A DNA stretch of 64,000 nt, taken from Paludibacteraceae bacterium. GTDB lineage: Bacteria; Bacteroidota; Bacteroidia; Bacteroidales; Paludibacteraceae. The stretch covers positions 62,001 through 126,000 of the forward strand of contig JAFZLC010000013.1 of assembly GCA_017551675.1 (NCBI GenBank), given 5' to 3'. A model generated the notes under the pieces. That model worked only from the letters and a program-made list of their open reading frames with translations. It was not told the origin of the DNA and ran no database searches. Below are positions 36,807 to 39,937 of the stretch, one piece after another. A program made the position numbers and the translations under genes. Numbering within the stretch: position 1 is the first letter of the stretch; each line of letters begins with the position of its first letter.

Positions 36807-37172
36807 GTTGCTGGTCTCAGCATTAAAAAAGAGGAATTTAGAAATTAAGATGATAAAATGTTATTTGTTATTGATTTTTACATCTATTTCGATGAAAAAA
36901 ACTATCTTTAACCGAGCAACTTTGATTCGAATGAAGAAAAATTGATGATAGTCGTAGAACTTTAAAATAGATAATAATGACGTTAAAAGGTCTATGTAAA
37001 TATTATATTAGTTGTATTAACCAAATTGAAAAGTGGATAGAGATGGTTGATAAAAAAGTTTAAACTATATTGAAGGGTGTTATATAGAATTTTTTAGTAA
37101 TACTCTCCCCGAAGATATTAAAATTGGTGACAAACTTTTTTTGAATAAACATTAAACAAATCGAATGAATGT
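36807..37172. other. AT-rich intergenic region before the AbiF module
   Basis: About 365 very AT-rich bases between the ddh terminator and the first RNA gene. It holds two short open frames, 36849-36944 (31 codons) and 36977-37063 (28 codons, starting MTLKGLCKYYISC). Neither has a recognisable domain or a promoter I trust. I see no transposon ends. It may be leftover sequence from earlier insertions. Confidence 0.4.
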
Positions 37173-37203
37173 TTTGTTTTATAAAAAAAAAGCAATAAAT
37201 TTG
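37173..37203 (+). promoter_or_regulatory. Promoter of RNA copy 1
   Basis: TTTG at 37173-37176, exactly 19 bases, then TAAATTTG at 37196-37203: an exact match to the Bacteroidota consensus TTTG-N19-TAnnTTTG. The RNA element starts immediately after. Confidence 0.8.
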
Positions 37204-37205
37204 CA

Positions 37206-37265
37206 CTCAATATGACCGCTCACGCTTCCCATTGAACAGCGCACCCGAGCGGTCTTCGAGTTTTT
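37206..37265 (+). ncRNA. AbiF-associated structured RNA, copy 1
   Basis: A 60-base element, repeated with one base changed at 38246-38305. Folding by eye: an outer stem GACCGCTC (37214-37221) with GAGCGGTC (37247-37254), 8 perfect pairs. An outer extension pairs ACTCAA (37205-37210) with TTCGAGT (37255-37261) with a bulged C. An inner stem pairs CGCT (37223-37226) with AGCG (37238-37241). The run TTTTT ends it, so it is a compact RNA with a built-in terminator. It lies 18 bases before the AbiF start. A structured RNA next to AbiF/Abi_2 genes is known from comparative studies (the abiF RNA motif), and RNA antitoxin function has been proposed; identity with that motif is my inference. Confidence 0.78.
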
Positions 37266-37283
37266 CTATCTATATTTTGTTTT

Positions 37284-38201
37284 ATGCAATACACTAAACT
37301 ACCTTTATCTGTTGAAGAGCAAATTTCCAAGCTTGAGAAACGAGGATTGCGTTTCTGTAATAAGTGTTTGTCTACTAAATATTTACAGAACATAAGTTAT
37401 TATAGATTACGTGCATTTACGTATCCGTTTCAAAATAACATGGATAACGCCGATCATGAATTTGTTAGGGATGATATCGATTTCATGGATGTTATTGATT
37501 TGTATGTGTTTGATAAGCGATTACGCTCCTTGGTATTCAGCGAGATTGAAAAAATAGAAGTTGCGGTACGTACAAAACTCTCGCTTTATTATTCTCTTTC
37601 TAAAAATGACGCATTGTGGTATGAAAACGAGAATATCTATAAGTCTCCTATCAAGTTTCAGAAAATAATAAGTGATATTAAGTCTGATGTTGATAGAAGT
37701 GATGAAGATTTTATCAAACATTATAGGCAAAAATACGACACTCCGTTAATGCCTCCTTCTTGGATGACTTTGGAAGTCGTTTCTTTTGGTGTACTTAGCC
37801 GATTATATAAGGAACTAATTCCAAGTGTGGAGAAACGTAGTATTGCAAATCAGTTTGGTATCGGTGATGAAAAGATCTTTGCCAATTGGTTACACGCATT
37901 TAACAATTTGCGAAATTGTTGCGCTCATCATAGTAGAATATGGAATCGACGATTTCTTGTTCAAATCAAATTGCCATACAATACAACCTCTGCATTTATC
38001 CCCCGCAAAAAGATTGCTAAAATTAGAAATAACAAATTGTTTGCAATGCTCTCTGCCATAAAGTATATTGTTGATATAATTAGTCCCGATAACTCTTTTA
38101 AGACAAATCTGATTCAATTACTCAATCAGCCTAATCGTCTCCTTTCATTAAAAGAAATGGGATTTCCCCCTGATTGGGAAACTCTACCTGTATGGAAATG
38201 A
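37284..38201 (+). CDS. abiF: AbiF/Abi_2 family abortive-infection protein (HEPN)
   Basis: A 305-residue protein. The Abi_2 N-terminal signature is clear: LPLSVEEQISKLEKRGL, then YLQNISYYRLRAFTYPFQ at 33-50, then FDKRLRSLVFSEIEKIEVAVR at 76-96. The C-terminal part has the HEPN RNase motif R-x4-H at R210-H215, in NNLRNCCAHHSRIWNR. Such proteins act against phages, probably by cutting RNA when released from control; AbiF has been proposed as an ancestor of Cas13. The gene lies between two copies of a 60-base RNA. There is no strong promoter of its own between RNA copy 1 and the ATG, so it may depend on readthrough of the RNA terminator, as in type III toxin-antitoxin loci. Base use is more AT-rich than neighbours, suggesting transfer. 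Confidence 0.88.
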   Translation: MQYTKLPLSVEEQISKLEKRGLRFCNKCLSTKYLQNISYYRLRAFTYPFQNNMDNADHEFVRDDIDFMDVIDLYVFDKRLRSLVFSEIEKIEVAVRTKLSLYYSLSKNDALWYENENIYKSPIKFQKIISDIKSDVDRSDEDFIKHYRQKYDTPLMPPSWMTLEVVSFGVLSRLYKELIPSVEKRSIANQFGIGDEKIFANWLHAFNNLRNCCAHHSRIWNRRFLVQIKLPYNTTSAFIPRKKIAKIRNNKLFAMLSAIKYIVDIISPDNSFKTNLIQLLNQPNRLLSLKEMGFPPDWETLPVWK

Positions 38202-38212
38202 ATAATTTTTAT

Positions 38213-38243
38213 TTTGCTATAACGGAAAAAAACAATAATTTTG
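38213..38243 (+). promoter_or_regulatory. Promoter of RNA copy 2
   Basis: TTTG at 38213-38216, exactly 19 bases, then TAATTTTG at 38236-38243. Spacing to the RNA element is identical to copy 1 although the sequence between the boxes differs. Confidence 0.8.
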
Positions 38244-38245
38244 TC

Positions 38246-38305
38246 CTCAATATGACCGCTCACGCTTCCCATTGAACAGCGCACCTGAGCGGTCTTCGAG
38301 TTTTT
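38246..38305 (+). ncRNA. AbiF-associated structured RNA, copy 2
   Basis: Identical to the element at 37206-37265 except T at 38286 in place of C at 37246, a base just outside the 8-pair stem. The same stems and T run are present. It lies 44 bases after the abiF stop and has its own promoter, so it should be a separate transcript. It is followed by the WG-repeat gene, which starts 75 bases later. It may be a second antitoxin dose or the scar of the recombination that brought abiF in. Confidence 0.75.
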
Positions 38306-38351
38306 AATAACGAATAAAATGTAAGATTTGGTTTTCGATTTTTGCTAAAAA

Positions 38352-38366
38352 ATTATAGACGCCACC
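38352..38366 (-). repeat. Half copy of the GGTGGGTTCTATAAA motif
   Basis: Minus strand GGTGGCGTCTATAAT matches 12 of 15 bases of the dispersed motif. It lies 14 bases before the WG-repeat gene start, like the half copy before aguA. Confidence 0.3.
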
Positions 38367-38380
38367 TAAATAAATGGTTT

Positions 38381-39937
38381 ATGAAAAAACTTATTATCAC
38401 ATTATTCGCACTATCAGTAATGTCCGTGGTTTCATCGGCTTCACTGACAAAAGAACAAACAGAGTCTTTGAACGAGAAAATCAAGGAGTATGACTATGTT
38501 GGAAGTTTCAGCGAAAATAGAGCCCTTGTGATAAAAGACAATAAGGCTGGTTTTATCAATAAGTCTGGTGATGTGGTTATCCCTTTACAATATGAAAAAG
38601 TTGTTTCCTTTAGAAATCTATTCAGGAATGGAATTTGGTGTGATGAGTCGGTGGGTGTTATCGACAGCATGGGCAATCGATTGGTGCCAGAAGGAAAGGT
38701 GAAAAGAATTCTCCAAATTCCCCAAGGACGTTTCTGGGAGATTAATAAATTTCCTGATTTTAAATCGTTGGATATTGTACAAATTGAAACTGAGCCAGGT
38801 AAGACTATTACCTATTGCTTTGAATTCGGGAAGCTTCTCTTTACTATGGATAATGATTGGCCAGTGGTGAATTATTATACGGGGAGAATTCTTTCTACAA
38901 CCCAAAAGAAAAAGAAAAAATATTTAGGTGAAGAGGATCTGAAGAAGCTTGGATTTCAAGATGTTAGCAATGTATATCATTGTGGTTCTTTTGGATATAC
39001 AACAGGAGAATGCTTGGTATTGAAGAAAAATGACAAGTTTGGAATTGTTGACATGAATTTTAAGGAAGTCTATCCTTTTGTCTGCAACAACTCACATTTG
39101 GAATATGTTGATGGTACAGTGCTGGTTAATGAAGTCGTTTATCATGAAGATGGTGATCTTGGTCTTATGGTGTTCCCATTTACCACATCCATATACAAGG
39201 ACAAAAAGGTTTTAGCAAATAATCTTTTTTGTACCAGAGAAATGTATGGAAAATATGTTTTTTTTGAAGGGGGGCAAACCTCGTTCATGGACTATCTGGA
39301 GCAATCCTTAGGTATAAAAACACCAGAGTCGGCAAAAAAAATAAAATTATACACCTTGGATGGTAAAGAGGTGGAATCCATAGCTTTTGGTCAAAACAGA
39401 TTTAGACTTGTTGATAAAGAAGGTGTATCGTCATGGATATATGAGGATGCAAAAGGCAATGCCATTATAAAAGAGCCAGTAGAACTGGTGTCTGGTAAAT
39501 TTGGAGAAAAGGTAATCGCCATACAAACTGCATCAAGTATACAAAATGGACTTGAGATTTTTATTGATATCGCTACGGGTGATACTGCATGGTTTCCTGA
39601 GTCTGCGTTTTGTGGAATGATATTCCCATTTCCCTATCTGGAAGCAGGATTGATAAAAGTTTCGGATTTGTCAAGATATGATTATAAATACAGTCCGCTT
39701 ACCGATTATTATGTCACCTCATCCAGAAGAGATAATGAATTAAATTTGAAATTTATGCGCAGAGAAGAGTACGATGATTCTACTCGTAAAAGCCTCTATA
39801 AAATAAAAAATACAGAAACAAACAAACTCATAGAAAAAGAGTTTCAACAGATAGATTCCTTCTCAGACGAACTACTATTGGTGAGGTTCAATAATAGATG
39901 GTATTTCTTGAATGACGAGGGGGAAGGAATTAAATAA
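38381..39937 (+). CDS. Secreted WG-repeat protein
   Basis: A 518-residue protein from the ATG at 38381, which gives a signal peptide (MKKLIITLFALSVMSVVSSA). A TTG 39 bases earlier is in frame but would place 13 residues in front. Near the N-terminus a WG-type beta repeat is clear (ALVIKDNKAGFINKSGDVVIPLQYEK is its shape). A second unit, VLKKNDKFGIVDMNFKEVYP, is near 218, and a last one near the C-terminus ends WYFLNDEGEG. Such repeats form extracytoplasmic beta scaffolds and have no known enzymatic role. It lies just after RNA copy 2 and may belong to the same accessory stretch, but no functional link is evident. Confidence 0.7.
   Translation: MKKLIITLFALSVMSVVSSASLTKEQTESLNEKIKEYDYVGSFSENRALVIKDNKAGFINKSGDVVIPLQYEKVVSFRNLFRNGIWCDESVGVIDSMGNRLVPEGKVKRILQIPQGRFWEINKFPDFKSLDIVQIETEPGKTITYCFEFGKLLFTMDNDWPVVNYYTGRILSTTQKKKKKYLGEEDLKKLGFQDVSNVYHCGSFGYTTGECLVLKKNDKFGIVDMNFKEVYPFVCNNSHLEYVDGTVLVNEVVYHEDGDLGLMVFPFTTSIYKDKKVLANNLFCTREMYGKYVFFEGGQTSFMDYLEQSLGIKTPESAKKIKLYTLDGKEVESIAFGQNRFRLVDKEGVSSWIYEDAKGNAIIKEPVELVSGKFGEKVIAIQTASSIQNGLEIFIDIATGDTAWFPESAFCGMIFPFPYLEAGLIKVSDLSRYDYKYSPLTDYYVTSSRRDNELNLKFMRREEYDDSTRKSLYKIKNTETNKLIEKEFQQIDSFSDELLLVRFNNRWYFLNDEGEGIK

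Follow-up and report, generated by a model that had tools for sequence, protein, structure and literature searches.

Background

AbiF proteins and their small structured RNAs form a kind of toxin-RNA module that has already been demonstrated elsewhere: neutralisation of an RNase toxin by an RNA antitoxin has been shown for the AbiF of C. difficile and stated for PbAbiF, from a Prevotellaceae bacterium (PMC12373285, PMC12737573). The C. difficile RNA binds AbiF directly and neutralises it, whether supplied in cis or in trans, and this RNA, RCd22, limits transcription of abiF by termination, the gene being reached by read-through (PMC12373285). PbAbiF, of which there is a structure together with its RNA (PDB 8vz6), forms a homodimer that contains two copies of the RNA, and the double substitution R210A+H215A makes it inactive (PMC12373285). 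It has also been reported that Cas13 probably descends from AbiF, and that the AbiF RNA was a precursor of the guide RNA (PMC12737573).

Here, I describe an abiF locus in a stretch of 64,000 nucleotides of a Paludibacteraceae genome (hereafter the window), which is new in two respects, namely a divergent form of the RNA that Rfam misses, and a copy of this RNA on either side of the toxin gene. The locus is probably a type III-like RNA-antitoxin/HEPN-toxin (AbiF) module with two independent antitoxin RNA genes.

Organisation of the locus

All features lie on the forward strand. A promoter region (37165-37205; TTTTG, 19 nt, TAAATTTG) of the Bacteroidota type TTTG-N19-TAnnTTTG precedes RNA1 (37206-37265), a divergent abiF-type structured RNA with a TTTTT tail, assigned by the covariance model R1, covariation and fold. 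The abiF/abiD gene follows (37284-38201), encoding an Abi_2 family HEPN protein of 305 aa with R210-x4-H215, for which Pfam, PADLOC and PDB 8vz6 provide the evidence. Immediately 3' of its stop codon come a second promoter region (38202-38245; TTTTG, 19 nt, TAATTTTG) and RNA2 (38246-38305), a second copy of RNA1 with its own TTTTT tail, which is matched by R1 and whose body is kept in related genomes. A previous examination of the letters alone (the sequence-only reading) had placed the two 60-base elements at these very positions, in one orientation on either side of the gene, and had noted a single-base difference between them. The elements lie on the strand of the intact Abi_2 gene, and the difference is a C at 37246 against a T at 38286 (identity 59/60); position 37173, at which it had the locus begin, is merely promoter upstream of RNA1.

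A BLAST search of the whole genome with the first copy as query returned only two copies of the element, both in this locus, and the genome holds a single Abi_2 gene. The neighbouring genes are of the housekeeping kind and the locus is not in a defence island. Elsewhere in the same genome (L174, contig C43:1057-1092) there is a third, apparently decayed RNA of the canonical abiF type, scoring 41.8 bits with RF03085, the Rfam model of abiF RNA, and having no abiF gene near.

The protein matches Pfam PF07751 (Abi_2) with 191.5 bits (cut-off 25.6) over model positions 1-184 of 184, and the PADLOC profile AbiD with 246.9 bits; NCBIfam has no family for it. Its only relative in the PDB is 8vz6 (PbAbiF), aligned over residues 8-305 (E 4e-53, about 35% identity). 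The identification as Abi_2/AbiF stands on the Pfam and PADLOC profiles and on full-length similarity to PbAbiF. The R-x4-H HEPN motif is R210-NCCA-H215: R210, N211, H215 and H216 are invariant among 19 aligned homologs, 8vz6 included.

A divergent abiF-type RNA

Each element comprises an 8-bp stem and an inner stem of 3-4 bp, and ends in TTTTT. Compared with dinucleotide shuffles the folds have z-scores of -3.2 (RNA1) and -3.6 (RNA2), with 0/200 and 1/200 shuffles, respectively, being as good. The covariance model R1, built from seven other Bacteroidota loci that all lie outside the genus of the window, matches in the 64-kb window solely RNA1 (61.2 bits, E 4e-15) and RNA2 (60.8 bits, E 6e-15). 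In the model-fitted alignment of 41 matches (A5), which leans towards structure and to which shuffle and slide controls were applied, 96.1% of the cells are paired and 9 of 11 pairs are changed on both sides; the covariation score is 0.549 as against 0.166 for shuffles and at most 0.112 for slid controls, the latter bringing the paired cells of the same alignment rows down to 32-51%. A5 was used for the pair counts because in the MAFFT alignments (A1-A3) the 3' strand came out in the wrong place, owing to an internal loop of either 5 or 6 nt. Covariation in homologous elements, the lack of which the sequence-only reading had named among the findings that would speak against it, is strong. As for the helices it had drawn, the 8-bp and 3-bp ones are strongly supported, whereas the outermost 3-bp CTC/GAG helix is weak, with 60% of the cells paired in relatives.

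The conserved parts of the RNA are a bulged A, the CGC/GCG inner stem, a loop UUCCC...GAxCA and a 3' internal loop starting with CACC. The T at 38286 of RNA2, absent in the two related genomes that carry the same locus (L034 and L035, see below), would, according to the predicted fold, form a pair with the bulged A and, if the modelled pairing forms, could alter the inhibitory strength of this copy.

A search with RF03085, proposed earlier as a check, leaves both elements unmatched: over positions 37000-38500 there is no match at the gathering threshold or at E up to 10. Other Rfam families yielded chance matches of snoRNA type only. Since RF03085 misses both elements, their kinship to abiF RNA had to be shown via relatives. 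A comparable hairpin stands shortly before the gene in nearly all relatives of abiF. In L036 (protein 46% identical) RF03085 exceeds its cut-off, with 38.9 bits, just upstream of abiF, as it does just upstream of the abiF relative of the Verrucomicrobia genome L040, and it scores 58.5 bits upstream of the genes of L157/L158, whose proteins are 88-89% identical to PbAbiF. At L025 both RNAs of a tandem pass RF03085 (canonical, 61.3 bits; divergent, 43.7 bits), and L170, a locus on a B. fragilis plasmid, likewise passes RF03085 with a score of 40.1 and has 41.2 with R2, a second covariance model that was used for the genomes of the order. Because such intermediate loci score in both models, the window RNAs represent the divergent end of one continuous family, and these bridging loci, along with covariation, support the view that the elements are structured RNAs of the abiF kind. 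Their consensus architecture (covarying 8-bp and 3-bp helices, bulge, 3' internal loop) and their position beside abiF agree with abiF RNA. They are filed here as a divergent relative of RF03085 and not as a member of the Rfam family. As Rfam misses the divergent form, abiF RNAs of Bacteroidota are under-counted; the alignment made here directly yields an improved model.

Promoters, termination and the position of RNA2

Among 40 distinct sequences upstream of homologous RNAs, 34 have the motif TAnnTTTG immediately before the RNA, compared with 1.2% of shuffles, and in 32 a TTG precedes the motif by 17-23 nt; RNA1 and RNA2 of the window have both promoter parts, at a spacing of 19 nt. A scan for the sigma-70 consensus, which is expected to fail in Bacteroidota, gave nothing above shuffles, and a simple terminator scan did not report the elements, their loops being longer than the scan allows. 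The promoter regions of RNA1 and RNA2 are about 69% identical and the downstream flanks about 41%, so that the duplication probably took in the promoter. With a promoter motif and a T-run of its own, each RNA copy appears to have the gene layout of a type III toxin-antitoxin system. Given that the gap between the T-run of RNA1 and the ATG of abiF is only 18 nt, abiF is most likely transcribed by read-through from the promoter of RNA1, as in the case of C. difficile RCd22 (PMC12373285).

It might be thought that RNA2, which begins 44 nt past the abiF stop and terminates in TTTTT, works chiefly in cis, providing the abiF mRNA with its 3' end and terminator, in which case the full-length toxin mRNA would have an inhibitor at both ends; the 5' copy of C. 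difficile is, for its part, a terminator-type leader (PMC12373285). Such a role is unlikely, in view of the full promoter motif directly 5' of RNA2 and of the other abiF loci searched, none of which has a convincing 3' copy; a 3' copy is, by the same token, not needed to end an abiF mRNA. A candidate 3' copy in the Verrucomicrobia genome L040 was rejected as too weak (14.1 bits, E 0.38).

Distribution of abiF-type RNAs

The two-sided arrangement had been called unusual, and bracketing of abiF was indeed encountered only in three genomes of one genus (the window's, L034 and L035) among 358 genomes of the family, 393 of the order and 395 of the phylum, with the proviso that searches of more than 40 genomes were filtered more strictly, at the cost of weak matches, and may have passed over some doubled loci. 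In the family, 49 genomes together have 63 RNA places by R1, and no pairs are spaced by about 1 kb except those of the three genomes; in the order, R2 found RNAs in 51 genomes, with tandem pairs in G467 and G525 and no further bracketed pair; in the phylum, RF03085 found single copies in 8 genomes. Viral contigs that contain the core pattern number 28, and each has a single match.

Doubling alone is not unprecedented, because tandem RNAs upstream of abiF exist, as does a two-motif RNA in C. difficile (PMC12373285). Two tandems (L025:1331-1488 and L116:516-635) pair a canonical-like with a divergent RNA, and in a third (L115:1168-1477) a complete RNA is followed by an apparent N-terminal remnant of abiF and then by a second RNA with an intact abiF.

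Between roughly a quarter and a third of the RNAs located in the family are solo: some 18 of the 63 places lack an abiF match over a distance of roughly 1.5 kb (one lies at a contig end), 4 have a detectable remnant of the gene (L090, L103, L121 and L128), and L118, L125 and L127, which are among the 18, show short abiF-like N-terminal stretches by eye. L077, L078, L080, L082, L085, L086, L097, L117, L119, L122-L124 and others have no abiF nearby. Promoter and structure persist in many of the solo copies, several of which have the full promoter motif and a perfect stem; this fits an RNA that does no harm in the absence of the toxin and may be kept. At L126:1492-1543 an abiF-type RNA, with no abiF, lies directly 5' of a gene resembling the R subunit of a restriction enzyme (Pfam domains HSDR_N, ResIII and SWI2_SNF2); the start of the gene directly downstream of the L116 tandem, where abiF is likewise absent, resembles this gene by eye.

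Such loci can be read as stages, from the L115 tandem with its apparent remnant through solo RNAs with remnants to solo RNAs without a trace of the gene, and they lend themselves to another account of the window, whereby RNA1 alone works and RNA2 is the relic either of a tandem RNA-abiF duplication that lost its second abiF, or of an older solo RNA beside an inserted unit. That RNA2 of L034 is without the G at -7 of its promoter points the same way. A relic is a possible but rather doubtful origin of RNA2, owing to the manner in which this copy has been conserved.

Conservation of the second copy

In the window, L034 and L035 the RNA-abiF-RNA unit lies 3' of the same gene, the diaminopimelate dehydrogenase (dapDH). 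The abiF of L034 is 99% identical to that of the window; the abiF of L035 is 87% identical and has a frameshift near codon 31, both RNAs of this genome being intact. Since L034 has lost the G of TAnnTTTG in the RNA2 promoter and the abiF of L035 is frameshifted, either part of the unit can decay. Both RNA bodies nevertheless stay 95-100% identical among the three genomes while their flanks diverge, for which reason the second copy is probably functional. In every comparison the body of RNA2 is identical at 58/60 positions, compared with 72-87% for the promoter regions and 55-83% for the downstream 40 nt; four-fold degenerate sites of abiF are 60% identical between the window and L035 (52/86), and at that rate 58/60 would have a P of about 6e-11. 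These figures argue against a mere relic, and so do the promoter motif of RNA2, intact in two of the three genomes, and the stretch 3' of RNA2 in the window, where a search for an abiF remnant gave chance matches only. Concerted evolution or gene conversion between the copies could contribute to this pattern, or mimic selection, although in L007-L009, which are single-copy relatives, the RNA body is nearly the same with no partner copy.

Directly 3' of RNA2 the window has a large gene for a WG-repeat protein (38342-39937), whereas in L035 the site carries a different gene (YdcF-like by eye); RNA2 is hence not the leader of one conserved gene.

The block common to the window and L035 spans just the interval from the RNA1 promoter to the end of RNA2, and the other genus members whose site and flanks were read are devoid of the entire cassette, RNA and abiF alike. 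One might suppose from this that the RNAs are simply direct repeats bounding a mobile cassette, i.e. its insertion or excision ends, with no RNA function. The supposition is highly improbable: compensatory changes in the RNA are strong, most other abiF loci have a single upstream RNA, the empty sites of the genus members searched bear no scar in the form of a solo RNA after dapDH, and neither a transposase nor a target duplication was seen.

Working model

The RNA-antitoxin/HEPN-toxin module put forward in the sequence-only reading is borne out as regards the protein family, the catalytic residues, the kind of RNA and the conservation of both copies; a direct match to RF03085 is the part that failed. 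In a module with two antitoxin RNA genes, AbiF would be a toxin with HEPN ribonuclease activity, probably homodimeric, held inactive by the binding of abiF-kind RNAs of about 55 nt from the two separate flanking genes. RNA1 would in addition form part of the abiF leader, the majority of transcripts from its promoter ending at its T-run and rare read-through giving the abiF mRNA. RNA2, from its own promoter, would supply antitoxin RNA independently of abiF transcription. When the supply of RNA drops, e.g. upon phage attack, free toxin would cut RNA and growth would stop. Toxicity, RNA binding, neutralisation and read-through control are here attributed to the window locus by analogy with characterised relatives, and it is plausible that RNA2 is transcribed and raises the antitoxin dose, possibly doubling it as first suggested.

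A further conjecture, to which little likelihood is attached, is that the 3' RNA gene and the solo copies are kept as free-standing antitoxins against own or incoming AbiF, that abiF-type RNAs would spread or persist independently of the toxin, and that the bracketed locus may be a step towards multi-RNA arrays around a Cas13-related nuclease. Two-sided, tandem and solo loci display RNA copy number variation around the AbiF nuclease before CRISPR-like arrays, and with the near-identical RNA pair both dosage and a single-base change beside the conserved bulge can be tested cleanly.

Comparison with known systems

The phage-encoded, type III-like AbiF/RCd22 system of C. difficile has the same upstream order of promoter, RNA and terminator, and likewise makes two abiF motifs available (PMC12373285); there, however, both motifs reside in one upstream RNA, whereas in the window they belong to two genes, upstream and downstream of the toxin. 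With PbAbiF-AbiFr (PDB 8vz6) the locus shares a full-length Abi_2/HEPN protein, about 35% identical and with R210/H215, as well as a small upstream hairpin RNA composed of outer stem, bulge, inner stem and 3' internal loop. Close relatives of PbAbiF have the canonical RF03085 RNA, upstream only, while the RNA of the window has a loop that is longer and different, and is present on both sides. From RF03085 itself come the outer stem, the single-base bulge, the 3-bp inner stem, the loop and the 3' internal loop of 5-6 nt as shared features, the difference being that the window copies, a divergent Bacteroidales form, fall below any threshold. The lactococcal abortive infection systems AbiD, AbiD1 and AbiF have in common with the locus the family of their protein, PADLOC giving that of the window the name AbiD.
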